Shown here one piece after another: positions 1 to 17,100 of a DNA stretch of 64,000 nt. The position numbers were made by a program, and so were the translations under genes. Source of the stretch: Campylobacteraceae bacterium (GTDB lineage Bacteria; Campylobacterota; Campylobacteria; Campylobacterales; Arcobacteraceae); assembly GCA_013215945.1 (NCBI GenBank), contig JABSOM010000004.1, positions 124,001-188,000 on the forward strand. Reading direction: 5' to 3'. The notes below the pieces were generated by a model. It saw only the letters and a list, made by a program, of their open reading frames with translations. It had not been told where the DNA came from and made no database searches. Within the stretch, counting starts at the first letter, position 1. Every line of letters starts with the position of its first letter.

Positions 1-31
1 TATAAGTGCTTATTCAGTCAGTTTTAATTAT

Positions 32-54
32 TATTATGAGAATTATTATTATAA
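32..54. promoter_or_regulatory. Fur-like box upstream of the TonB operon
   Basis: GAGAAT at 38-43, one spacer base, then ATTATT at 45-50 approximates the 6-1-6 Fur consensus (GATAAT-n-ATTATC). It lies about 30 bp before the first gene of a TonB operon, where iron repression would be expected. The surrounding sequence is AT-rich, so chance similarity is possible. Confidence 0.45.
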
Positions 55-79
55 ACAAATTTAAATAACAAGGAAAAAA

Positions 80-829
80 ATGAACCCCTTTTTAAAAGTG
101 GCTTTACTTATGGCAATTATTATTAATACTGCCTTATCAAATACACTAGAACCAACGATTAAAGTTATTGAAAAGACAAATTCAAAACTTAATACTTTAC
201 AAAAAAAGATTAACAAATCTGAGGACAAACGTTTGGATTTATTTAATGAATACAAATATGTTAATCAGTCTTTAAAAAATACAAAAAACTACAATGCACA
301 ACTGCAAAAAATTCTTGATTCACAAAATAAAGAATTAAACAGTATTGATGAGCAAATAACAGACATATCTCAAACACAAAAACAAATCTTTCCTTTAATG
401 AAAGATATGATTATTTCATTAAAAATGCTTCTAAAAGAAGATACTCCTTTTTTATTGACTGAGCGAAAAAACAGAGTTACAAGAATTGAAAAAGCTCTTG
501 AAGCTGGTGATATTAAAACTCATGAAAAATATAGAATTATTTTAGAAGCTTTTAAAATCGAATACGATTATGCTAAAACAATTGAATCTTACCAAGAAAA
601 TATCAACGATATAACTTATAATATTTTACGTTTAGGTCGAGTGGCACTTTATACTCAAACGCTTGATTTAAAAGAATATGCATATTTTAATAAAGAAACA
701 CAAATTTGGGTAGCCATCACAGATTCATCTGCTAAATCAAATATTAGAAAAGCAATTAAAATAGCTAAAAAACAACAAAATGTTGATTTATTAAGCCTAC
801 CATTTTTAGCACTTAAGGATATAAAATGA
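80..829 (+). CDS. DUF3450 periplasmic protein of a TonB2-type system
   Basis: A 249-residue protein with an N-terminal hydrophobic signal-like segment (about residues 4-20, ending near NTALS). A long charged, Gln/Lys/Asn-rich helical region (about 25-115) with coiled-coil character follows. This is the pattern of DUF3450 proteins, which in Vibrio sit at the head of the TonB2 cluster and act in the periplasm with TtpC. AAGGA at 70-74 supports the ATG. The stop overlaps the next start as ATGA, so the two are translationally coupled. Exact biochemical role is unknown; a structural or regulatory partner of the ExbB/ExbD motor is inferred from the cluster. Confidence 0.75.
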   Translation: MNPFLKVALLMAIIINTALSNTLEPTIKVIEKTNSKLNTLQKKINKSEDKRLDLFNEYKYVNQSLKNTKNYNAQLQKILDSQNKELNSIDEQITDISQTQKQIFPLMKDMIISLKMLLKEDTPFLLTERKNRVTRIEKALEAGDIKTHEKYRIILEAFKIEYDYAKTIESYQENINDITYNILRLGRVALYTQTLDLKEYAYFNKETQIWVAITDSSAKSNIRKAIKIAKKQQNVDLLSLPFLALKDIK

Positions 830-2139
830 TTAGATATATTGTAGCTTTAAGCCTTATTTTTTCATTTTCATTTTCACTTGATCTTGAATCCTTATTAAAA
901 AGCGTTAAAAACGAGTCACAAGTTGAAGTAGCACTTGAGAAACAAAGATTAAATGATTTTATTAACAACAAAGAACAACAAGCTAAAGTTTTAGCCGGCA
1001 CGAAAAAAGCTTTAAAAAAAGCAGAAAAAAGAAGTATTACTCTTAAAAATGCAATAGAAGAAAAAGAGTTAGAGCTTATTGAAAAAGAAGCAGAACTTGA
1101 AAAAAAAGCAGCTAACTTAGGAGAAATGTTTGGAAGTGTTAGACAAAGTTCATCTGATTTTTTAATTAATTTTCAGCACTCCTTAACTGCCTCACAAGAT
1201 GTATCAAAAGAAATGTTCTTTTATAAACTTGCCAATTCAAAAAAACTAGCAAATATTAGTGAACTGACTTTATTTTGGCATGAAATGTTAGATGAAATTA
1301 TCAAAAGTGGTTCTATTTCACAATACGATGCAAAAGTAATTTTAAACTCAGGACAAAGAGCAGAGCAACGTATTACAAGAATAGGACTATTTTCAGCTAC
1401 GAGTAATGGAAAATACTTAAATTATTCTAATGAAATGAAATCGTTAGTTGAATTAGCAGTACAACCAAGCTCAAGTGTTCAAAACAATGCAAAAAACTTT
1501 GAAAATTCATCTGATATTCAAAGTATTTTAATCGATCCTACAAGAGGAACACTCTTAGTAATGCTTGAAAATAACCCAAGCATTCTTGATAGAATAAATC
1601 AAGGTGGAATAGTTGGTTTTATTATTTTAGTACTTGGGGGATCAGGACTGTTATTTGCATTGTATAAGATATTGGTACTAAATATGTATTCACGTAATAT
1701 TAAAAAACAAATTAAAGATTTAGAAAATGCGAATGATAATAATGCTTTAGGAAAAATTGCAAAAGTATTTTATAACAATTTAAATGATTCATTAAATGAT
1801 TTAGAAATTAAAGTGGGGGAAGCCATTTTAAAAGAAAGTAATAAAATACAAAAAGGTCAAAGTTTTGTAAAACTTCTTGCAGCAGTTACACCTTTATTGG
1901 GATTATTAGGAACGGTTACAGGAATGATTACTACTTTTCAAGCCATTACATTATTTGGAACAGGTGATCCTAAACTTATGGCAGGAGGAATATCAACTGC
2001 ATTAATTACTACTGTACTTGGATTAGTTGCTGCTATTCCTTTATTGTTTGCATATACCTATATTTCTTCAAAATCAAGACAACTTATTTCTATTTTAGAA
2101 GAACAAAGTATTGGTTTATTAGCCAAAAATTTAAAATAA
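826..2139 (+). CDS. TtpC-like MotA/TolQ/ExbB proton-channel protein with periplasmic extension
   Basis: 437 residues. A signal-like hydrophobic start (1-18) is followed by a strongly charged coiled coil (about 20-110) and a periplasmic region to about 255. Three membrane segments follow, near 260-285, 345-375 and 395-420. The last two carry the ExbB/TolQ signature, including PLLGLLGTVTGMI. The long N-terminal extension separates it from the 172-residue ExbB next door and matches TtpC of Vibrio TonB2 systems, which bridges the inner-membrane motor to the periplasm. It overlaps the upstream gene by 4 bp and abuts exbB with no gap. Confidence 0.8.
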   Translation: MIRYIVALSLIFSFSFSLDLESLLKSVKNESQVEVALEKQRLNDFINNKEQQAKVLAGTKKALKKAEKRSITLKNAIEEKELELIEKEAELEKKAANLGEMFGSVRQSSSDFLINFQHSLTASQDVSKEMFFYKLANSKKLANISELTLFWHEMLDEIIKSGSISQYDAKVILNSGQRAEQRITRIGLFSATSNGKYLNYSNEMKSLVELAVQPSSSVQNNAKNFENSSDIQSILIDPTRGTLLVMLENNPSILDRINQGGIVGFIILVLGGSGLLFALYKILVLNMYSRNIKKQIKDLENANDNNALGKIAKVFYNNLNDSLNDLEIKVGEAILKESNKIQKGQSFVKLLAAVTPLLGLLGTVTGMITTFQAITLFGTGDPKLMAGGISTALITTVLGLVAAIPLLFAYTYISSKSRQLISILEEQSIGLLAKNLK

Positions 2140-2658
2140 ATGTTTGAATTATATGTAGATGATTTAATGGGTTTCTTTGAAAAAGGAGGCCTGGTATTGT
2201 ATTTAGTATTTATTTTAGCCTTATGTTTATGGGCTTTATTAATTGAACGCTATATTTATATATCTTATGAGTTTAAAGCATTCAAAAAAAATGTTTTAGA
2301 AGAAGTATCTAAAATACAAAAAGATCACCGATTTAAAGAAGAAATTAAACGCTACTTTATTGAGCATTCAGCCATTAAACTTGAAAAAGGTCTGCCTTTT
2401 ATTAATACTATTATTATAGTGTGTCCGCTTGTTGGATTATTAGGAACAGTAACAGGAATGATTGAAGTATTTGATGTTATGGCTGTTCAAGGAAGCTCTA
2501 ACGTCAAATCTATGGCTTCTGGTGTTTCTATGGCTACTATTCCGACAATGGCAGGAATGGTTGTTGCTTTAAGTGGTTTATTATTTGAGAAAAGATTAGA
2601 AATTACGATTACCCAATCCAAACAAAAACTTGAATTTGAAATTCAAAAGGTATTATAA
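2140..2658 (+). CDS. exbB: ExbB-type biopolymer transport protein
   Basis: 172 residues with a first membrane segment at about 15-38. A MotA/TolQ/ExbB core follows, containing PLVGLLGTVTGMIEVF and a final hydrophobic helix around TIPTMAGMVVALSGLLF. With ExbD it forms the inner-membrane proton channel that energises TonB. The ATG follows directly on the ttpC-like stop, and its own stop overlaps the exbD start. It is shorter than E. coli ExbB but normal for the TonB2-type subfamily. Confidence 0.88.
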   Translation: MFELYVDDLMGFFEKGGLVLYLVFILALCLWALLIERYIYISYEFKAFKKNVLEEVSKIQKDHRFKEEIKRYFIEHSAIKLEKGLPFINTIIIVCPLVGLLGTVTGMIEVFDVMAVQGSSNVKSMASGVSMATIPTMAGMVVALSGLLFEKRLEITITQSKQKLEFEIQKVL

Positions 2659-3065
2659 TGAGAAGATTTACACAAAAACATCATAAAGAAGATACAGAAA
2701 TCAATCTAACTCCTATGCTTGATGTTGTTTTTATTATGCTTATATTTTTTATTGTTACAACTTCTTTTATCAAAGAAACGGGAATAGATGTAAACAGACC
2801 CTCTGCTAAAAGCACTCAAAGTAAAGCACAAGCCAATATTTTAATTGCCATAAAAAACAATGATGAAATTTGGATTGATAAAAGAATGGTTGATATCAGA
2901 TCAGTTAGAGCCAATATAGAGCGCTTGAAAGCATCCAATGCAAATAACTCTGTTGTTATTCAATCAGATGAAGCATCCAAAACAGGTACTTTGGTAAAAG
3001 TTATGGATCAAATTAGATTAGCAGGTATATTTGCTATTTCAATTTCTACTTTAGAGACTAATTAA
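2658..3065 (+). CDS. exbD: ExbD biopolymer transport protein
   Basis: 135 residues: a short cytoplasmic N-terminus, one membrane helix (about 17-38) and a periplasmic domain. NLTPMLDVVF carries the membrane aspartate (Asp22) that corresponds to the proton-relaying Asp of ExbD/TolR. It is the partner of the preceding ExbB. The stop and the tonB start share TAATG. Confidence 0.9.
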   Translation: MRRFTQKHHKEDTEINLTPMLDVVFIMLIFFIVTTSFIKETGIDVNRPSAKSTQSKAQANILIAIKNNDEIWIDKRMVDIRSVRANIERLKASNANNSVVIQSDEASKTGTLVKVMDQIRLAGIFAISISTLETN

Positions 3066-3682
3066 TGAAAATAATTTTAAGCCTAATCTTTTCTACCCTT
3101 ATTTGTTTGGGCATGTTTTTTGTTATGCACTTGATGATTTCTTCCGATCAACAAGCATTAAATGAAAAAAAGACAACACCTCATCTTGTTTATTTGAGAG
3201 ATAAACAAGATACACATATTGAGCGTAAAAAAAGAGTGAAACCAAAAGTTCCTCCTAAAGAAATAGTACTTAAAAAAATGAAGTTATTAAGAACACCTCT
3301 TGATCTAAAAACGAATAAAACGATTAAAATTAAACCCTTCAAAATTGAGCACCAGAAAATTGATCTCTCTGCTATTAATTCCTTAGGTGGGGCGCAAATT
3401 GAGATGAATATGGGACTTATTGATGCCAATTCCTTACAGATATTAAGAAGAGCAAATCCACGATACCCTAGGCGCGCAAAACTTAAAAAACTCGATGGCT
3501 TTGTAAAACTTATTTTTACTATTTCAAAAGAAGGTAATGTATCAAATGTGAGAGTCCTAGACTCAAAACCAAAAGGTATTTTTGAGAAATCTGCTATAAA
3601 AGCAATGAAAAGATGGAAGTTTAAACATACGGGCATCCAAAAAGATGCAACGATTACATATAATTATAGGTTGGCAAATTGA
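3065..3682 (+). CDS. tonB: TonB energy transducer
   Basis: 205 residues with an N-terminal membrane anchor (about 4-26). A basic linker with only a short proline patch (KPKVPPKE) follows, then a C-terminal TonB domain from about residue 125, with ANPRYPRRAKLKKLDG and KAMKRWKF as landmarks. It transmits energy from ExbB/ExbD to outer-membrane receptors; the siderophore receptor at 14.7 kb is a plausible client. The linker lacks the long Pro-Glu/Pro-Lys repeats of E. coli TonB, as in TonB2-type proteins. Confidence 0.88.
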   Translation: MKIILSLIFSTLICLGMFFVMHLMISSDQQALNEKKTTPHLVYLRDKQDTHIERKKRVKPKVPPKEIVLKKMKLLRTPLDLKTNKTIKIKPFKIEHQKIDLSAINSLGGAQIEMNMGLIDANSLQILRRANPRYPRRAKLKKLDGFVKLIFTISKEGNVSNVRVLDSKPKGIFEKSAIKAMKRWKFKHTGIQKDATITYNYRLAN

Positions 3683-4848
3683 AAAAATTATTACTTTGTT
3701 TACTTGTTTTAACAAGTTTGTTAAATGCAAAAAATACCATTTCAAAAACAGCATACAAACAATTACAAGAAGCACAAAAGCTAAGCGAAAGTAAGTTATA
3801 TAAAAAGGCTTTATTAATTCTAGAGCCTATTATTAAAACATCTGAAAATAAACTTGAACGTTTATATGCTTATCAAGCAAAAGCAAATATTTATATAAAT
3901 AAAAATGAATATGAAAAAGTTGCCCTTATATATATAAATATTATTAACTTAGAAGTTTCAGAAGAAAAAGATTTAGATACATTAAAAAAGAATCTTTCTC
4001 AAATATATTTAGGAGAATCTTTATACAAAAAATCTTTGAAATACTCTTTTGAAATTCTTGATAGCAAGTATGTAAAAAAAGAAAGTGTTATTAAAAATAT
4101 CGCTTTAGCTTATTATTATGATGAAAAGTACAAAAAATCTGCACCTTATATAAAATCAGTAATTAAAGCAGAAAAGAAAAAAGAATCCTGGTATCGTATG
4201 CTTTATTCTTCTTATATACAAACAAAAGATTATAATTTGGCCATTGGTGTTTTAGAATATATGACACTTCATTATACTAATAAATCATCTTATTGGATGC
4301 AACTTATTTCTTTGTATCAACGTACCAAACAAGATAAAAAATCTTTGGCAACACTTGAACTGGCTTATAATAAAAAATACATTAGTCAAAAAGAAAATGC
4401 TAAATATTTTGTGAATGTTTTATTGCAAAATGACCTTTTTCACAAAGGAAGTCTTGTACTTAAAGATGCAATCAAAAAAGGTTTTATTACAAAAGATAAA
4501 AAGAACTTTGATTTATTAATAGCAGCCTATTTAAATGCCAAAAACTACAAAAGTGCTATTAAAGAATTAAATGCTTCTAAATGGGCACATACTTCTAAAT
4601 ACAGACTTATGCTTGCAAATATTTATTACAATAAAGAGAATTATAAAACAGCTATTAAAGTATTAAAACACTATAAGTTTAAAAAAGGAAGCAGAAAAGA
4701 TGGGGAGAGATATTCATTAATCGCTCTGTGTTTTCATGAACTGGATGATAAAAAATCTTCAAAAACATACCTTCAAAAAGCTGTTTCTAATAAATACCAG
4801 AAAAAAAGAGCGACATACTTAGCAAAAAGTCTGGGTATTAAAATATAA
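3679..4848 (+). CDS. TPR-repeat protein of the TonB cluster
   Basis: 389 residues. It has a signal-like N-terminus (MKKLLLCLLVLTSLLNAK), then helical repeats with TPR character through the rest (for example KALLILEPII, KKSLKYSFEIL, YKTAIKVLKHY). It starts with TTG, overlapping the tonB stop (TTGA), so it is the last gene of the operon; a strong hairpin terminator follows. A TPR protein ends the Vibrio TonB2 cluster too, so it is probably a periplasmic accessory factor. Its precise function is unknown. Confidence 0.75.
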   Translation: MKKLLLCLLVLTSLLNAKNTISKTAYKQLQEAQKLSESKLYKKALLILEPIIKTSENKLERLYAYQAKANIYINKNEYEKVALIYINIINLEVSEEKDLDTLKKNLSQIYLGESLYKKSLKYSFEILDSKYVKKESVIKNIALAYYYDEKYKKSAPYIKSVIKAEKKKESWYRMLYSSYIQTKDYNLAIGVLEYMTLHYTNKSSYWMQLISLYQRTKQDKKSLATLELAYNKKYISQKENAKYFVNVLLQNDLFHKGSLVLKDAIKKGFITKDKKNFDLLIAAYLNAKNYKSAIKELNASKWAHTSKYRLMLANIYYNKENYKTAIKVLKHYKFKKGSRKDGERYSLIALCFHELDDKKSSKTYLQKAVSNKYQKKRATYLAKSLGIKI

Positions 4849-4866: not shown

Positions 4867-4892
4867 AAAAAGGGCTTTTTAGCCCTTTTTTG
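4867..4892 (+). terminator. Rho-independent terminator of the TonB operon
   Basis: AAAAAGGGCT, a TTTT loop and AGCCCTTTTTT form a GC-capped hairpin with a T-run, 19 bp after the stop of the TPR gene. Confidence 0.9.
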
Positions 4893-4907
4893 TACATTGT
4901 TTTTATC

Positions 4908-4913
4908 TATACT
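4908..4913 (+). promoter_or_regulatory. Candidate -10 element placing transcription start at the ATG
   Basis: TATACT at 4908-4913. A start 6-7 bases downstream would coincide with the ATG at 4919, and no Shine-Dalgarno sequence precedes that ATG. Confidence 0.4.
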
Positions 4914-4918
4914 TTCGC

Positions 4919-5551
4919 ATGAGTAAAAATGAGATATTAAACTATTTAAAAAATGCTAAAATCAAAGATCATATGTTAGCGCAGATTTGTTACTATTTTT
5001 CACTTGATTATACAGCTAGTACAACAGCTAAAGAGCTTAATTTAAGTAGACAAACCATTAATAACTATTACAAGATAATAAGAACCCTACTTCTTAGAAA
5101 ACAAGAAGAATTGATGTTGGATATGGAAGAAACATCTTCTACAAATGGTTTTTCATTAAAATATCTTCAGTCCAGTTCTTATGTAAACTATTTTATTGAA
5201 TACAATGAAAAAGTATTTATTATAGATTCTGATTCTACCTTAGTACCTAAGATTGATAATCTATTAAATGAAGATATAAAAAATTCTCTTCATAACAATT
5301 CAAAATCAAACTGCGCAAAAGTTTTATTTAATCAAAGAAAACAGAGTTATTTAGTGATGAGAATGTTAAATACAAGCAACAATATGCAAGAGTTTGTGGA
5401 TAAAAGATTAAAAAAATTCAGAGGTTTAAATAAAGAGAATTTATTAGTGCATTTAAAAGAATCTCAATTTAGATTTAATTATTCAAATGAATATTTACAC
5501 TCTACTGTTTTGTCTTTGTTAAACCTCAATACAAAATCTTGCACCTTCTAA
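4919..5551 (+). CDS. Short protein derived from an IS1595-type transposase (probably domesticated)
   Basis: 210 residues. Residues about 19-58 form a helix-turn-helix (TAKELNLSRQTINNYYK), like the DNA-binding segment of IS1595/ISXO2 transposases. Residues about 157-205 match the tail of that family: DKRLKKFRGLNKENLLVHLK and then ESQFRFNY. In an intact IS1595 enzyme these regions flank a longer DDE/DDN catalytic core; here the middle is short and no clear DDE triad is visible, so it is probably not a working transposase. No terminal repeats were seen. A TATACT -10 ends 5 bp before the ATG, so the message may be leaderless. The 3' end overlaps the convergent kinase gene by 33 bp. The family link is pattern recognition, not a search result. 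Confidence 0.6.
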   Translation: MSKNEILNYLKNAKIKDHMLAQICYYFSLDYTASTTAKELNLSRQTINNYYKIIRTLLLRKQEELMLDMEETSSTNGFSLKYLQSSSYVNYFIEYNEKVFIIDSDSTLVPKIDNLLNEDIKNSLHNNSKSNCAKVLFNQRKQSYLVMRMLNTSNNMQEFVDKRLKKFRGLNKENLLVHLKESQFRFNYSNEYLHSTVLSLLNLNTKSCTF

Positions 5552-7243
5552 ATCATTAGAAACACTTAATTCACCGCTAAAATGTGTTTCAATAATCATT
5601 TTTGACATATACAATCCAATGCCTGAGCTGTTCTGTTTTGTTGTGAAATAGGGTTCAAATATTTTTTCTATGATATTCGGATTTATTCCACCCGCATTAT
5701 CACTAACACTTAAACAACTTTTATTTTCTTTTGTATCCACGATTACTGTTATTAAAGGATCAGTAATCTTATTCAGAACAAGTGCATCTTTTGCATTTTT
5801 TAATAGATTTAGCAGTACTTGCGAATATTCATTTTCTATTGCTTTTATTTTTTTATCACTTTTTATAATATATTTAATCTTTATATTTGAAGATACTAAA
5901 GAAGGATGAATAATATCTATTGCTTTTTGCACTGCCATACTAATAAAAAACTCTTCTTTTATTTTTGAGAGTTTATAAAAGTCTTTAAAATTATCAATGG
6001 TTTTAGACATAAAATCCAACTGATTATTTGACTCTTCAAGTTTTTCCTCTAAATATTTTTTGCTTAAATCATTGTCATCACTTGCTAGTTGAAGGTTCAT
6101 ATTTATATAAGAAAGATGACTTAAGGGTTGTCTCCATTGATGTGCAATATTATTAATCATTTCACCCATAGAAGCTAATTTACTTTGGTGAACATACATT
6201 TTCTCTTTTTCTTTTTTTTCAAAAATTGTTTCTTTCAGTTTGTAACCTAAAGCAAAAGTCAGAACAAGTGACTCCATGGGTAAGCCAATATGTAAAGTAT
6301 GTACAATATCCAAATCAAAGTAAGGCATATACTCAGTAATAAATAAACTGGCTAATAATACACACCAGCCAAGTACATAAAATCCCGAGCTTTTTGTACC
6401 CTTGAAATAAGATATACTTCCAGCAAGAACCAATGAGGCTATTAAAACACTACGTGGTAAATACAAATATAAAATTGAGTATTGAAGTAAACAAGCTAAA
6501 AGTAAATCAACAATATGTACATAGAGCAAAAAATTAAAGAAAGTATTTATTCTTTTCATTTTGTTTTTGGTATTTAAAATTTCTTTTGTAAATAAAATGG
6601 CAAATAAAGAAGCAAACGTTTCTGCTTGATCAATAATCATTTGTTCAATACTCGTAAAAAAAGTCTGATTTAGAATAGTAGGAATAAGATACAAAGTAAT
6701 TAAAGCAGATAATTGCATGAGAGAATAATAAATAAAAGCTTTCTCAAATGTATAAAGAAATAAAATAAAATTATATAAAAATGCACAAAAAATAATAGCA
6801 TAAGCAATTCCAAAAAACAGACCTTCATTTATTTGTAAACTTTTATATCTACTGTCATTAACCAGTATTCTTCCAAAATTAATTAATTGTGCTTCTTTGT
6901 GTACAAAATAAAAAACAATTTCTTCTGGACTGTCCTTATTAACATCAAAAATAAGAGAATCATAGGTTTTTTCATATTCAATATTTGCATAAAGTAAATC
7001 ATTGACAGCTGTAACTACCTTAAGTGAATAGGTTTTATTTTCTAAAAAACGCTTATCAATGTGAAGTTTTATTGCTACTTGTTTAAATTTCTCTTTTTTG
7101 ATATTGTATTTTTCATAAAGTTTATAATTAATAAAATCTTTTGAAAGATAGGCTTCTTTTATAATTTGATTACGTAAAGGAGCAGCTTCTAAATAAAAAA
7201 ATAAACATAAAAAACAAACAATATATTTAATCAAGAACTTCAA
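5519..7243 (-). CDS. 7TMR-DISM sensor histidine kinase
   Basis: 574 residues. A signal-like start and periplasmic 7TMR-DISM extracellular domain (about 20-135) precede seven hydrophobic helices (about 140-335) and a short linker. The HisKA domain has phospho-acceptor His368 in NNIAHQWRQPLSHL. HATPase features follow: an N box near 480 (LLNLLKNAKDAL), DNAGGI near 520 and SSGIGLYMSK near 545. It starts with TTG, 17 bp inside the 3' end of the response-regulator gene, so the two are cotranscribed and coupled. The signal sensed is not evident. This kinase architecture is common in Campylobacterota. Confidence 0.85.
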   Translation of the reverse strand: MKFLIKYIVCFLCLFFYLEAAPLRNQIIKEAYLSKDFINYKLYEKYNIKKEKFKQVAIKLHIDKRFLENKTYSLKVVTAVNDLLYANIEYEKTYDSLIFDVNKDSPEEIVFYFVHKEAQLINFGRILVNDSRYKSLQINEGLFFGIAYAIIFCAFLYNFILFLYTFEKAFIYYSLMQLSALITLYLIPTILNQTFFTSIEQMIIDQAETFASLFAILFTKEILNTKNKMKRINTFFNFLLYVHIVDLLLACLLQYSILYLYLPRSVLIASLVLAGSISYFKGTKSSGFYVLGWCVLLASLFITEYMPYFDLDIVHTLHIGLPMESLVLTFALGYKLKETIFEKKEKEKMYVHQSKLASMGEMINNIAHQWRQPLSHLSYINMNLQLASDDNDLSKKYLEEKLEESNNQLDFMSKTIDNFKDFYKLSKIKEEFFISMAVQKAIDIIHPSLVSSNIKIKYIIKSDKKIKAIENEYSQVLLNLLKNAKDALVLNKITDPLITVIVDTKENKSCLSVSDNAGGINPNIIEKIFEPYFTTKQNSSGIGLYMSKMIIETHFSGELSVSNDLEGARFCIEV

Positions 7244-7928
7244 TCCTGTAGCCTACTTTTGCTACATTAATTAAACTATCAGCAGGAAGTTTTTTTCTAA
7301 GATTTCTTACAAGTGAGCGAATAGCATCTTCGCTCATTGACGAATCGTACCAAATTTTATTTTCAATTTCTTCATAAGAAACGACCCTACTCTCATTTTT
7401 ATGCAAAATGTCCAAAAATAGAAGCTCATTCTTACTTACTTTTATACTTTTATTATTTTTAATAAGTGTTCGCTTGAAAGGATCGTAATAACACTCTTTA
7501 GAAATATATTTTACCCTGTGAGTATTTTCTTTTATATTTTTAGCACATTGTAATAGTACTGGAAACAAAATATTATGTCGGATGGGTTTAATCATATACT
7601 TAAGTAATCCCAGTTCCACAGCAGAAATTAAATAATTGGTATCTGTAAAAGCTGTCATCATTATTATTTGCGTATTTATTTTTTTTTCTCTTAGTTTTTT
7701 AACAAACTCAATCCCCGTCATTTTAGGCATCTTTATATCTGTAATAATAATATCCGGTTCATATCTTTCTACCATATCTAAAGCTTCAAGTCCATCTTTT
7801 GCTTCATAAACAAAAGGAAATAACCTTTCTAAATAAGAAACTGCATTTTTTCGTATGAATTCTTCATCTTCAACATATAAAATTTTGATATTTTTAAACT
7901 CTTCTCTTTTCATAAGCGAAGTATACAT
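7227..7928 (-). CDS. OmpR-family response regulator
   Basis: 233 residues. The receiver domain (about 14-130) has acidic residues Glu20/Asp21, phospho-acceptor Asp64 (DIIITDIKMPK), a switch Thr in MMTAF and Lys in IKP. The C-terminal winged helix (about 140-230) includes KVSKNELLFLDIL and DAIRSLVRNLRKKL. It is the cognate regulator of the overlapping kinase. A second ATG six codons in is an alternative start; neither has a good ribosome-binding site. Targets are unknown. Confidence 0.87.
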   Translation of the reverse strand: MYTSLMKREEFKNIKILYVEDEEFIRKNAVSYLERLFPFVYEAKDGLEALDMVERYEPDIIITDIKMPKMTGIEFVKKLREKKINTQIIMMTAFTDTNYLISAVELGLLKYMIKPIRHNILFPVLLQCAKNIKENTHRVKYISKECYYDPFKRTLIKNNKSIKVSKNELLFLDILHKNESRVVSYEEIENKIWYDSSMSEDAIRSLVRNLRKKLPADSLINVAKVGYRIEVLD

Positions 7929-11835: not shown

Positions 11836-12281
11836 TGATTTTATCTTTGTTCCAAAAGTAAATTTTTATAATATTCATAATCATCATGTTAAAAAAAGAC
11901 AGTTAAAAGTTAACATCTCTTTGTCTAACATAAGGGGGGATATTTATTATTACCACTCTTTTATTCTTGCAATAAGATAATTATATTAGTTATTTAGTTA
12001 ATCTACTATTAAATTCACTGCTTCTTAAATAATTTGATTTTGTGCCATCAAAATTTGGATAATTTGATTTTTTGTCCTCAAAATTTCAAAATAAATATTT
12101 TTTATTCTAGAAAAATAAATAAAAATATAATTTTAAATAATATTTTTTATGCTTATTTTACGCCTAAACTCTTTTTATATATGAATAAATAATTTATATA
12201 AAATTACGAGTAAAGGACTTGTAAATAAACACTTAACACAAAAACTTTACTATTACAAATATTTTATATAAAGGATTTGTA
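11836..12281. other. 446-bp intergenic region with dyads and direct repeats
   Basis: A divergent, very AT-rich gap between the flavoprotein gene and doxX. It holds the perfect dyad GTTAA-AAG-TTAAC at 11902-11914 and a pair of near-identical 30-bp repeats at 12029-12088. Two similar stretches (AAAGGACTTGTAA and AAAGGATTTGTAT) lie near the doxX start. No convincing coding sequence or RNA gene was seen. Confidence 0.6.
12029..12088. repeat. Tandem pair of about 30-bp direct repeats
   Basis: Two copies start with ATAATTTGATTTT and end with TCAAAATTT, 30 bp apart (12029 and 12059). Copy 1 contains ATTTTG-(6)-CAAAAT; copy 2 retains ATTTT...AAAAT. They could be repeated operator sites. Only two copies are present, so this is not a CRISPR array. 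Confidence 0.6.
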
Positions 12282-12704
12282 TTGTACAGATTATTATTTG
12301 GTCAAAAAAGAGTATTCGAAGATTTATCGTTGTTGTTACTTAGGTTATTTATGGGAGGGACTTTTATTGTTTATGTAAGTAAAAAAATACTTAATTTTGA
12401 TAATTATGTCATTTTGTTTTCAGATAAATTAGATTTACCTTTGCCTTTACTAAATCTTTATTTAGTGATTGCAGTTGAAGCAATAGGAGGAGTATTACTT
12501 CTAATAGGATTATTTACGAGATTGGCAACAATACCATTAATTATCACCATGATTACCGCATTATTCTTAGTCAATTTAGAAAAAGGTTTTGCAGCATCCA
12601 ATTTTGGTATGGAAATACCACTTGCGTATATATCCATTTTATTTGTATTATTTGCATTTGGATCCGGTAAATTTAGTCTAGAAAATAAAAAAACAAGTGA
12701 ATAA
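12282..12704 (+). CDS. DoxX-family membrane protein
   Basis: 140 residues with four hydrophobic helices. It shows the DoxX/DoxD pattern: LLRLFMGGTFIVYVSKKI near the start, then VEAIGGVLLLIGLFTRLATIPL. Function in this family is variable and mostly undefined; links to redox or respiratory chemistry have been reported for some members. It starts with TTG, preceded by AAAGGA. It stands alone, with 463 bp before the sigma factor gene. Confidence 0.8.
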   Translation: MYRLLFGQKRVFEDLSLLLLRLFMGGTFIVYVSKKILNFDNYVILFSDKLDLPLPLLNLYLVIAVEAIGGVLLLIGLFTRLATIPLIITMITALFLVNLEKGFAASNFGMEIPLAYISILFVLFAFGSGKFSLENKKTSE

Positions 12705-13167
12705 ATATTCACAGTTTACACTTTATTTTTAAGAAAATTTAAAAAAATCACATTCTAAAGGATCTTAACTCTGACGTTAATAAAGCTAAATCTTTTATTT
12801 TTTAGCCCAAAATGCTGAAAACTGTTAGTACATTTTATCACAGAGAGTGCAGGAACAAGAGAGAATTTTTGGACTTAGCTAACAAATAAAAATATTTAGG
12901 CACCCGAAGGGCTTTATCAATGTGTCAGTTGCTTTCTTGTTTCTTCTTTTCAAGAAAAGAAGATGCTAGAATGTACAGAGAAAATTCTGCTTGCAGACAA
13001 AATAAACGCAAAGGTCACTTTGTATGAGCTCTTAAATAATTACTTTATAAAAAGTTGAGATTCGTCCTCAGGGGCTAAGTAGCTTATTAATAAAGTGATA
13101 AAACAATACTCTTTTTCTTGTATAAGAATGATTATGATAATATCTATCAAAAAAATTTGGAATATTT
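12705..13167. other. 463-bp intergenic region before the FecI-like sigma gene
   Basis: The stretch about 12830-13060 is visibly less AT-rich than other gaps. It holds a dyad near 12950 (CTTCTTTTC-AAG-AAAAGAAG) and a 31-codon reading frame (about 12963-13058, beginning MLECTEKILLAD) without a clear ribosome-binding site. It looks like a leftover or intergenic element; I cannot name it. A Fur box lies at its right end. Confidence 0.5.
13122..13148. promoter_or_regulatory. Fur box upstream of the sigma factor gene
   Basis: GAATGATTATGATAATATC matches the repeated GATAAT/ATTATC Fur pattern. It ends about 20 bp before the ATG, where bound Fur would block transcription. Confidence 0.7.
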
Positions 13168-13641
13168 ATGATAGATTATTATAAAGAACTTTTTTATTAT
13201 GTACAACGCATGGTTAGAGACAAAGATAAAACGCAAGATGTCATTCAAGAAACATATGCTAGAGCCATAGAAGTAGACTCACGAATTAAAATCATTAATA
13301 AGCGCGCCTATTTATATAAAATGGCTCGAAATATTGTAATTGATGAAATAAATAAAAATAAAAATATCTCAAAAGTAGCGTATGAGGACAATTCAAATAT
13401 AATACCTGCATCTGAACAACCAGAAGAAATAATATTAAATCAAAGTTTAGAAAATAATTTAATGGATATCGTAAAAACTCTGCCTTCACGATCAAAACAA
13501 GCCTTCATTTTACATACAATTGATGGATATTCAAGAAAAGAGATTGCCTTAAAAATGGGAATTACGATAAATGCTGTTGAAAAACATATTACAAGAGCAA
13601 CTATGAAAATCCAAGAAAAATTAGAAGAGGTTGAAGCATGA
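13168..13641 (+). CDS. FecI-like ECF sigma factor
   Basis: 157 residues. Region 2 is in the first half (DKTQDVIQETYARAIE and the YLYKMARNIVIDE segment). Region 4 is at 105-150, with LPSRSKQAFILHTIDGYSRK and an HTH ending INAVEKHITRA. There is no long extra domain. It would direct RNA polymerase to the downstream receptor when released or activated through FecR. Its stop overlaps the fecR-like start (ATGA), and a Fur box precedes it. Confidence 0.88.
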   Translation: MIDYYKELFYYVQRMVRDKDKTQDVIQETYARAIEVDSRIKIINKRAYLYKMARNIVIDEINKNKNISKVAYEDNSNIIPASEQPEEIILNQSLENNLMDIVKTLPSRSKQAFILHTIDGYSRKEIALKMGITINAVEKHITRATMKIQEKLEEVEA

Positions 13642-14615
13642 AAAATTTAACAACAATTAATCAAATAGCAAGTTATTGGATAGCCTTAGAGAAAGAAGGG
13701 TTTTCACCAAGTGAAGAAAAAGAATTTAATACTTGGCTAAAAACGAATACTTTACATGAAGAAATATTTGTGAAAGCCAAAAAAACACAAAATTTGTTTA
13801 AAAACTTAAGTAAAAAAAATTCACAACAATTAAGTACTTATGCGAATAAAGCTGCTTTTAGAACAAAAATAATTGAAAAAACAAAACCTTTATTAATGGC
13901 TGCAGTATTTATATTAAGCATAGGTTTTGCAGTTTTTGAAGTCCATGATTATTACACTCCTTCTTACAGTAAAATATATATCACCAATAAAAATATTATC
14001 AAAACAATCAAACTTCCTGATAACTCTTTATTAAGTTTAGATGCAAAATCACAAATGCAAATTGATTTATTCTCTCATAAAAGAGAAATCTCACTTTTAT
14101 ATGGAAGAGCTATGTTTAATGTAGCAAAAGATAAAAACAGAGTGTTTACCATACAAGCAGGAAAAACCTTGATTGAAGTAATAGGCACAAAATTTGAAGT
14201 AAATAAAGAAAAAAACAAAACCTATGTTACAGTTGAAGAAGGAAAAGTAAAAGTTTCTTATATTCTTGCTTCTGGAAAAAATAAAAGTATTGTGCTTTTA
14301 CTTAAAGGTGAGACCCTAAGTTTAAATAATAATGGGAAAGTAGAAAAGTATGAAAAAAGAGATATTTCATCCTTGGCTTCATGGAGAGAAAATCTACTAA
14401 TCTTTAAAGAAACTTCCCTGAATGATGCCTTTAAAGAATTTTCTAGGTATAAACACTTTGATGTTTTATACAAAAACAATGAAATTAAAGATTTTCTTAT
14501 CTCAGGGAAATTTACTAAAGATGAGTTTCAGATATTCTTAACAACCCTTCCTAAGATTTATCCCATTAAAATCACTAAAAATAAGAATTTAATACAAATT
14601 TCAAAAATAAATTAA
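13638..14615 (+). CDS. FecR-like anti-sigma/sigma regulator
   Basis: 325 residues. The N-terminal cytoplasmic DUF4880-type segment (ASYWIALEKEGFSPSEEKEF) is followed by one membrane helix near 84-102. The periplasmic FecR domain (about 105-210) has KTIKLPDNSLLSLDAKSQMQ and VIGTKFEVNKEKNKTYVTVE. A C-terminal domain (about 250-320) is STN/DUF4974-like. It senses the receptor's STN domain across the periplasm and controls the sigma factor encoded 4 bp upstream. Confidence 0.85.
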   Translation: MKNLTTINQIASYWIALEKEGFSPSEEKEFNTWLKTNTLHEEIFVKAKKTQNLFKNLSKKNSQQLSTYANKAAFRTKIIEKTKPLLMAAVFILSIGFAVFEVHDYYTPSYSKIYITNKNIIKTIKLPDNSLLSLDAKSQMQIDLFSHKREISLLYGRAMFNVAKDKNRVFTIQAGKTLIEVIGTKFEVNKEKNKTYVTVEEGKVKVSYILASGKNKSIVLLLKGETLSLNNNGKVEKYEKRDISSLASWRENLLIFKETSLNDAFKEFSRYKHFDVLYKNNEIKDFLISGKFTKDEFQIFLTTLPKIYPIKITKNKNLIQISKIN

Positions 14616-14654
14616 ATTCGTGTCCGCTTTTTGTTCTTTTTTAGTCTTATAGTT

Positions 14655-14685
14655 CAAGAGAATGATTATCAGAATTATTTTCATA
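14655..14685. promoter_or_regulatory. Fur box upstream of the siderophore receptor
   Basis: GAGAATGATTATCAGAATTATT contains an excellent AATGATTATC core. It lies about 50 bp before the receptor start, so the receptor has its own iron-controlled promoter besides any sigma-dependent one. Confidence 0.75.
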
Positions 14686-14733
14686 CAATTTAAAATAAAT
14701 TTAATTAAATTGCTTTAATTCTAAGGAGAACAG

Positions 14734-17100
14734 ATGAATATAAAAAAAACAGTATTATTAAGTCCCCTTGTGGCTATTTTATTAGCTTCAAATGTATATG
14801 CAGCACAAAACTTTTCCATCAAAGCACAAAGTTTACAAGAAGCAATACAAAGTATTTCAAAAAAAGCAAAAATACCTTTTATAGTCGATGCCGTACTATT
14901 AAAAGGAAAAACCTCTAAGAGTATTAAAAATATTGAAGGTCTACAAAATGCCTTAAATAAATTACTTGAAAAAAGTGGTTTAAAAGCAAGTATAGAAGAT
15001 GGCGCAATTATTATTAAACAAATAATAATTATAAAAAATACTTATTCTTCAAATTTAGGAGAAGTGGAAGTTATTGAAAGATCAGGTAATATTACAGAAA
15101 AAAGTGGTTCTTATACTATTAGTTCTATGAATAGTGCTACAAAAATGAACTTATCTATTTTAGATACACCACAAAGTGTAAGTGTAGTTACAAGAGAAAA
15201 AATGAACGACTTTTCACTTAATACAATCAATGATGTTTTACATCAAGTGCCAGGAATTACTGTTGAATTAAGAGAACCTAACAGAGCTAAATTTACAGCA
15301 AGAGGTTTTGCTATTAGTAATTTACAAATGGATGGTTTATCTTTACCACTTGATGCTGAATATTCAATGGGAGGCGTTGCAACTGAGATTTTTGATCATA
15401 TTGAAGTAACTAAAGGTGCTACTGCTCTTACAAGTGGTGCAGGAGATCCAAGTGCAAGTATCAATCTTATTAGAAAAAGACCTACAAAAGAAGCACAACA
15501 TTCTGTTGATGTAAGTTTAGGTTCATGGAATAATAAAAAAATAATGGTGGATAGTAGTGACTCAATTAATGAAAACTTTAGAGCAAGAATTGTTGCTTCC
15601 TACGAAAAATCAGACTCTTATTTAGACAGATATAATTTCGATAATAACTTATTTTATGCTATTTTTGAAGCAGACTTAAGTGATGATACTTTACTCTCTT
15701 TTGGTTTTTCACGTTATCAAAATAACACAAATGAAGGGCCATGGGGAAGTTTACCTTTATATTATACTAATGGTAATGCTACATCTTATGATGTTTCTAA
15801 AAACACCTCATCTGATTGGTCATTTTGGGATACTACTAAAAGTGAAGCTTTTATACAAATTGATCAAAACTTAAAAAATGACTGGAAATTACAAAGTGTT
15901 TTTAAACATAATACGCACAAAGAGCGTTCAAATTTGTTTTATATGTATGGAACTCCCACACAAGGCGATGAATCAGGACTAAAAGCAAGCCAAAGTGATT
16001 ATTCTATTGATGTAAAAGAAAATCTTTTTGACTTATCTGTAAATGGGCCTTTTACATTAGCAAATAGAGAACACGAAGCAGTAATTGGAGTAAGTATTGC
16101 TCAAAGTTCTATTATAAAAGATTCCTTAAATGCAGATAATGGATATCCTATTATTCCAAACTTTGGCACTTGGAATGGAAGTATTGATAAGCCTAACTTT
16201 ATTACAAACAGTAAGCCTTCTGCTGATTTTACAAACAAACAAATAGCAATATATGCAGCAAGTAATATAAATATAACCGATTCACTTTCTTTATTATTAG
16301 GTTCACGAATATCGAATTGGGAAACAAAAGGTTACAGTTACAAAAACAGTGTCAACTCAAAAGATAAAAATGTTCTGACACCTTATGCGGGAATAGTATA
16401 CAAACTTAATGACAATCAAAGTATTTATGCAAGTTATACAACGTCGTTTAAACCTCAGGAAAAAATAGATGCCAATTTTAAACAAATCGAAGCCAGTGAG
16501 GGAAAAAACTATGAACTTGGAACAAAAGCAACATTTTTCGATGGCGCATTAAATGGTACTTTTTCTTTATTTAAAACAAAACAAAAAAATGTTGCTTCAA
16601 AAGGAGCAAAAATATCAGGAATACAAACCTATGATGTGGATGAAGGTTTAGAAAGTAAAGGGTTTGAAGTTGAACTAGTAGGAGAAATATATAAGAATTT
16701 GAACCTAAGTTTTGGATATACTAATCTCCGTATTAAAGACCTAGATGATAACGTAGCAAAAACATATATTCCCCAAGAAACAATAAAAATATCTACTTCA
16801 TATAACTTTGAATCCTTGCCTGCATTAAAAATTGGAACCAGTCTAAGATGGCAAGATGATATTTATAGAAATCAAAAACTAGCAACACAAGGGCCTAAAA
16901 CAGGAGAAATGATTGTTTCTAAACAAAAAGCCTATACCATTATTGATATTATGTCATCGTATAAAATAAGTAAAAACGTATCTACTTCTTTTAATATAAA
17001 GAATATTACCAATAAAAAATACTATTCTAGTTTGTACTGGGCTCAAGGTTCTTATGGTGCACCAAGGTCTTACCATTTTAATTTAAAATGGACATTCTAG
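14734..17100 (+). CDS. TonB-dependent siderophore receptor with STN signalling domain
   Basis: 788 residues. Signal peptide about 1-23 (ending NVYAA). STN (secretin/TonB short N-terminal) domain about 25-100 (FSIKAQSLQEAIQSISKKAK). Plug domain about 135-260, with DTPQSVSVVTREKMNDF and HQVPGITVELREPNRAKFTA. A 22-strand barrel follows and ends in the expected aromatic residue (HFNLKWTF). The plug and barrel resemble FpvA/FhuE-type ferric-siderophore receptors. The STN domain pairs it with the adjacent FecR and sigma genes. AAGGAGA precedes the ATG. The ligand cannot be deduced. Confidence 0.92.
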   Translation: MNIKKTVLLSPLVAILLASNVYAAQNFSIKAQSLQEAIQSISKKAKIPFIVDAVLLKGKTSKSIKNIEGLQNALNKLLEKSGLKASIEDGAIIIKQIIIIKNTYSSNLGEVEVIERSGNITEKSGSYTISSMNSATKMNLSILDTPQSVSVVTREKMNDFSLNTINDVLHQVPGITVELREPNRAKFTARGFAISNLQMDGLSLPLDAEYSMGGVATEIFDHIEVTKGATALTSGAGDPSASINLIRKRPTKEAQHSVDVSLGSWNNKKIMVDSSDSINENFRARIVASYEKSDSYLDRYNFDNNLFYAIFEADLSDDTLLSFGFSRYQNNTNEGPWGSLPLYYTNGNATSYDVSKNTSSDWSFWDTTKSEAFIQIDQNLKNDWKLQSVFKHNTHKERSNLFYMYGTPTQGDESGLKASQSDYSIDVKENLFDLSVNGPFTLANREHEAVIGVSIAQSSIIKDSLNADNGYPIIPNFGTWNGSIDKPNFITNSKPSADFTNKQIAIYAASNINITDSLSLLLGSRISNWETKGYSYKNSVNSKDKNVLTPYAGIVYKLNDNQSIYASYTTSFKPQEKIDANFKQIEASEGKNYELGTKATFFDGALNGTFSLFKTKQKNVASKGAKISGIQTYDVDEGLESKGFEVELVGEIYKNLNLSFGYTNLRIKDLDDNVAKTYIPQETIKISTSYNFESLPALKIGTSLRWQDDIYRNQKLATQGPKTGEMIVSKQKAYTIIDIMSSYKISKNVSTSFNIKNITNKKYYSSLYWAQGSYGAPRSYHFNLKWTF

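Follow-up and report, generated by a model that had tools for sequence, protein, structure and literature searches.

Genes at the famA locus

The window, that is the whole stretch of 64,000 nucleotides that was analysed, opens with a TonB operon on the forward strand, made up of the genes for a DUF3450 protein (80..829), two MotA/TolQ/ExbB-type proton channel proteins (826..2139 and 2140..2658), ExbD (2658..3065), TonB (3065..3682) and, as the last gene, a TPR-repeat protein (3679..4848). Downstream on the same strand lies the ORF 4919..5551, whose product we have named FamA. It codes for 210 amino acids from an ATG to its end without internal stops and is real and intact, as the first-pass annotation of this DNA had stated of its frame. 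At its 3' end, 33 nt are shared in a tail-to-tail overlap with the convergent gene of a 7TMR-DISM sensor histidine kinase (5519..7243, reverse strand), next to which we found an OmpR/PhoB-type response regulator with receiver and Trans_reg_C domains (7227..7928, reverse strand). Farther along (13168-17100) a FecI-like sigma factor, a FecR-like protein and a TonB-dependent receptor follow one another and form a cell-surface signalling set of their own.

The neighbourhood reported earlier, a two-component system and a TonB operon, is thus present, and it is also conserved. Orthologs of the kinase and the regulator, mostly 41-65% identical, were detected within the fetched stretch of most FamA loci. 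In most of these loci famA adjoins a TonB-dependent receptor gene, usually divergently and about 90-210 bp apart, in others it adjoins the DUF3450-ExbB-ExbB-ExbD-TonB-TPR operon, and in two a feoB operon (FeoB being named from sequence) lies beside it. In the RefSeq annotation of Arcobacter cloacae the gene of the FamA ortholog, labelled 'hypothetical protein', and one labelled 'TonB-dependent siderophore receptor' point away from each other, and the kinase and regulator are nearby. Since the genomes contain 4-32 plug domains (median about 13), adjacency of famA and a receptor would be expected by chance near 1% of the time, an estimate given without a p-value because the loci share descent.

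Origin of FamA from IS1595-type transposases

The N-terminal HTH (residues about 17-58) gave only sub-threshold Pfam matches, the window protein reaching 17.5 bits with HTH_11, and such matches recur in most of the 28 orthologs aligned (two of them from one genome), as expected of a transcription factor and in agreement with the HTH noted before. The AlphaFold2 model, built from the window protein and one related locus, is poor (mean pLDDT 53); it places helices at residues 17-28, 33-40 and 44-71, and its pLDDT rises to about 83-86 at residues 31-50. Behind the HTH come a remodelled core and a C-terminal block (about 150-200) that had been said to resemble IS1595. In a direct HMM search residues 138-188 weakly matched the IS1595 profile NF033547 (161-214 of 215), with 13.6 bits against a cut-off of 75, so that the resemblance rests on profile evidence: hhalign of the 28 orthologs against six IS1595-type transposases of Campylobacterota, three of which were scanned and matched PF12762 at 90-95 bits, gave a probability of 99% and an E value of 5e-18 over 192 columns. 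The match to these IS1595/IS1016-type transposases spans nearly the whole length of FamA, with the HTH and the RLKKFRG..HLKES.FRFN block aligned and the catalytic residues not. Searched against PDB sequences, the family profile returned matches at chance level (E of 0.04 and up).

In the maximum-likelihood tree FamA forms one clade (support 98/91) next to the IS1016-type transposases, and a 100/100 branch parts both from a second family, FamB, described below; the tree is midpoint-rooted and hence without direction. FamA shares with the IS1595 family (ISXO2/IS1016-type; PF12762/NF033547) the HTH and the C-terminal block. Some members of that family have a zinc ribbon (PF12760), which is absent from FamA and also from its nearest intact relatives (L074-L079); among 397 Campylobacterota genomes, intact IS1595-type transposases that share this HTH and likewise lack the zinc ribbon occur in other families of the order.

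FamA differs from these transposases in its core, its flanks, its copy number and its conserved place. The only acidic residues invariant in the 28 orthologs are D30 and E181, both outside the core, and none is invariant at positions 56-180, indicating that the DDE triad, which the first reading of this protein had not found, was indeed lost and the core replaced or shortened. No IS-like repeats or target duplication bracket the FamA ORF of the window, again as had been observed; the inverted repeats around it are imperfect, mostly 73-92% complementary, AT-rich and not placed like those of an IS. A related intact IS measures 754 bp, carries the TIR GGCTCAAGATAAGTTA and is found as two copies 99.9% identical in one genome. 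We considered whether such a TIR could have become an operator, an idea that was rejected as the TIR is unlike either of the promoter elements described below.

Full-length FamA was confined to Arcobacteraceae within the 397 genomes of the phylum. Of 104 Arcobacteraceae genomes, 29 contain it: in 28 the match has E < 1e-25, and in G013, which is counted here, a masked stretch breaks up the gene. The genome of the window, 3.24 Mb in size, has one copy of famA and no IS1595 transposase above the cut-off. Neither an unrelated family nor many near-identical copies turned up, and one copy with conserved neighbours is not what the mobility of a functional IS1595 transposase produces. In one genome (G091) two diverged FamA copies (L035:7527-8159 and 12269-12883) are found in a single cluster with a receptor, kinases and regulators.

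FamA could also be a functionless, decaying IS1595 remnant that came to lie near TonB genes by accident, in keeping with the absent triad and with the broken and frameshifted IS1595 copies that are common in other Campylobacterota genomes. However, dN/dS in the closest pairs was 0.10-0.24, indicating purifying selection as in a domesticated transposase, the frames are intact in nearly all orthologs, and neighbours and promoter are conserved across species in the way of a gene with a fixed place; we regard decay as extremely improbable. Judged from homology, loss of the triad, selection and context, FamA is a domesticated IS1595/IS1016-type transposase in which the DNA-binding N terminus and the C-terminal block survive and the catalytic core is gone. 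The proposal of the first-pass annotation, a protein built from the ends of such a transposase and probably domesticated, is therefore upheld both by the profile-profile comparison with the tree and by the ortholog survey.

A tandem 11-bp box at the famA promoter

Motif finding detected a tandem 11-bp direct repeat, GCCCTTTTTTG/TACATTGTTTT (4882..4903, forward strand), at the -35 position of famA, followed after 4 nt by a predicted -10 box TATACT (4908..4913, forward strand) that ends 5 nt ahead of the ATG. The repeat was found in 28 of 28 famA upstream regions with the consensus [GC][AC]CATTTTTTN twice, always with the -10 box 4 nt downstream and usually with the ATG 5-6 nt further (20 of 27 loci as annotated, the exceptions being mostly start-codon choices). 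With this spacing the famA mRNA is predicted to be leaderless, and the same prediction applies to most loci. A symmetric hairpin AAAAAGGGC...GCCCTTTTT (4867..4890; one found, 0.0 expected), probably the terminator of the TPR gene, overlaps the first repeat with its 3' arm.

The copy at famA is the highest-scoring box of the window. When 684 kb of related DNA were scanned, the best matches were the famA promoters, feoAB in two genomes and a pair inside a PepSY gene, the latter presumably due to chance. Searching 104 genomes for the exact box with the fixed -10 spacing gave 21 matches, 14 at famA, 2 at feoAB and 5 at TonB receptors, and these five were all in genomes that lack FamA (G012 and G031). 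When one mismatch was allowed, at least 13 of 52 other matches had the gene of a regulator paralog within 3 kb, and in G012 and G014 the box sits between the regulator gene and the receptor gene. Degenerate copies in FamA's own genome (53 against 26 in a reversed control) were too noisy to name a regulon.

Our first reading, in which FamA owned this box, was dropped when the box was found at receptors of FamA-less genomes. A version of it would be autoregulation, with FamA rather than the regulator binding the repeats at its own promoter and so repressing or activating itself. The box is indeed found at every famA promoter and, within the fetched FamA loci, is nearly private to famA. Yet the exact box precedes receptors in genomes without FamA and occurs near regulator paralogs, from which it follows that it is independent of FamA and goes with the regulator. 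Besides, head-to-tail 11-bp repeats in place of the -35 element are the known format of OmpR/PhoB-family sites. We consider autoregulation quite unlikely; the box is best read as the predicted site of the response regulator, an OmpR/PhoB-type box linked to the regulator gene even where FamA is missing.

Two further observations concern the same box. In two loci (L037:11986 and L038:11414, both on the reverse strand) it is found with the same -10 spacing ahead of a feo operon just upstream of famA. Near-copies are located directly upstream of paralogous response-regulator genes in four genomes (G058:C1:682056, G060:C18:54920, G067:C1:82043 and G085:C3:278046), suggesting autoregulation in that regulator family.

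A different element at the receptor promoters

The receptor promoters in most FamA loci do not have the 11-bp box. They carry the element TTGTCATGA-N23-TAAG-N9-GAAATAATTCC ahead of a Fur-like site. With up to three mismatches it was found in 22 of 29 genomes with FamA and in 0 of 75 without it, and the reversed control gave no matches over the 104 genomes. The Fisher value of 8e-17 ignores relatedness, and as the genomes are related the counts overstate independence. Of the sites that could be located, 25 of 26 precede a receptor gene and the remaining one is near a locus edge (one locus was counted twice).

The box-carrying receptors of the FamA-less genomes (L139, L141, L143 and L144, loci that were reached through the box) are 72-79% identical to the element-carrying receptors of genomes with FamA. 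Orthologous receptors are thus found under the box in one set of genomes and under the element in the other, and no other observation suggests as strongly that FamA was either inserted between the regulator and the receptor or removed from that position. These promoter elements also lend support to the earlier suggestion that the transposase was reused as a DNA-binding protein, and they assign it to a particular circuit that was beyond the reach of the first-pass annotation.

FamA might have a role other than transcription, for instance in DNA bending, as an accessory of recombination or as a modulator of the kinase or regulator, in which case the receptor-side element would belong to another factor. 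In favour of this, no regulatory role is known for the C-terminal block, and the gene is tightly linked to the kinase and regulator. Against it, the element tracks the presence of FamA even at a receptor located on a different contig from famA (G085), and divergent transcription is the usual arrangement for a regulator and the gene it controls. We find a non-transcriptional FamA unlikely, although some other protein that was inherited together with the locus might bind the element.

In the clade of the window the situation is less clear. The 56-bp N23 element in its fixed form is absent from the seven genomes of this clade (G091 has one with N22, a spacer 1 nt shorter), and the pattern TCATGA-N20-25-TAAG-N8-10-GAAAT had no site in FamA's own genome. 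A shorter element, TTRTCATGW-N11-13-TAAG, has three matches in the 313 kb searched from this clade, before the TonB operon of the window's genome and of its sister species and before a receptor gene in G095. In the window this candidate FamA site belongs to the TonB-operon promoter region (1..79, forward strand), where TTGTCATGT starts 19 bases ahead of base 1, TAAG is at 3-6 and a Fur-like AT-rich palindrome spans about 28-54. The target of FamA here may therefore be the TonB operon whose last gene lies immediately upstream of famA. This is the weakest link of our reading, since in the window's genome it depends on the shorter element with its three occurrences.

A proposed relay from the two-component system to the receptor

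The reading that we favour, and consider reasonably probable, is that FamA would be a dedicated transcription factor in a relay that runs from kinase to regulator to FamA and from there to the receptor or TonB genes. The 7TMR-DISM kinase and the OmpR-type regulator would act on the tandem box that replaces the -35 element of famA. FamA would then act at the N23 element upstream of the promoters of TonB-dependent receptors or TonB operons, and in the window's own clade at the shorter TTGTCATGW-N12-TAAG, one helical turn shorter than the N23 form. Fur would be a second input, as the target promoters also carry Fur-like sites. The position of both elements suggests that the two steps are activations, and the regulated outer-membrane uptake genes probably serve iron. 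From the sequences we infer the binding partners, the sign of regulation, the signal and iron as the nutrient.

FamA would join other systems known at TonB-dependent receptors. FecI/FecR-type signalling and direct two-component control are found at the same kind of gene, with an ECF sigma factor or the regulator itself acting directly, whereas in the present case a protein of transposase origin seems to stand in between. In eukaryotes it is well established that transposases can give rise to transcription factors. The plant proteins FHY3/FAR1 are an example (PMC6000157), to which FamA, if it is the transcription factor that we propose, would be similar in being derived from a transposase, although of another superfamily. 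TldR are RNA-guided transcription factors derived from TnpB (PMC13418256); like them FamA would be a transposon-encoded protein turned transcription factor, but its origin is a DDE transposase and nothing indicates a guide RNA. The parts of a 2022 review of prokaryotic element recruitment that we consulted list transcription factors from phage, antitoxin and other sources (PMC8987985), and a DDE-transposase-derived one is not named among them. Searches of the literature, which covered few subscription journals, found nothing on IS1595-derived regulators and no bacterial transcription factor derived from a DDE transposase.

If confirmed, the relay would give a regulator and an element a name in the control of TonB receptors in Arcobacteraceae. 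It would also offer a comparison of before and after, in which orthologous receptors stand under a two-component box in one genome and under a transposase-derived factor in another, so that the addition of a regulatory step to a circuit could be tested.

FamB, a second degenerate IS1595 lineage

FamB consists of zinc-ribbon IS1595-like proteins with a shrunken core and no evident triad, mostly in single copy (L060:5577-6206, reverse strand, and 36 other loci within L054-L111). They are found throughout the 397-genome sample of Campylobacterota, and in Arcobacteraceae almost only in genomes with HypD. Most of the 37 loci adjoin hyp (hypBCDEAF), hydrogenase-protease or nickel-transport genes; the identities of these neighbours were read from sequence and agree with the annotation in two plasmids. 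Like FamA, FamB has a degenerate IS1595-type core and is fixed beside a metal-related cluster. It differs from FamA in the zinc ribbon that it kept, in its separate branch of the tree and in having hyp and nickel genes as neighbours instead of TonB genes. A study of the hydrogenases of Sulfurospirillum did not report regulators other than NikR (PMC5357620), and within a literature that included few subscription journals we found nothing on a transposase-like gene in hydrogenase regulation.

Both families together may indicate that IS1595-superfamily DDE transposases have been domesticated on two or more occasions in Campylobacterota, becoming dedicated regulators of metal-related gene sets, FamA between a two-component regulator and TonB receptors in Arcobacteraceae and FamB, so far unrecognised, for [NiFe]-hydrogenase maturation and nickel uptake across the phylum. 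Related genomes would then show the FamA circuit both with and without the added step. We put this joint reading forward tentatively, as plausible but slightly on the doubtful side. Confirmation of the role of FamA would suggest that some Campylobacterota genes labelled 'transposase' or 'hypothetical' are host regulators; in the two plasmids mentioned above, the RefSeq annotation of FamB is 'transposase'.
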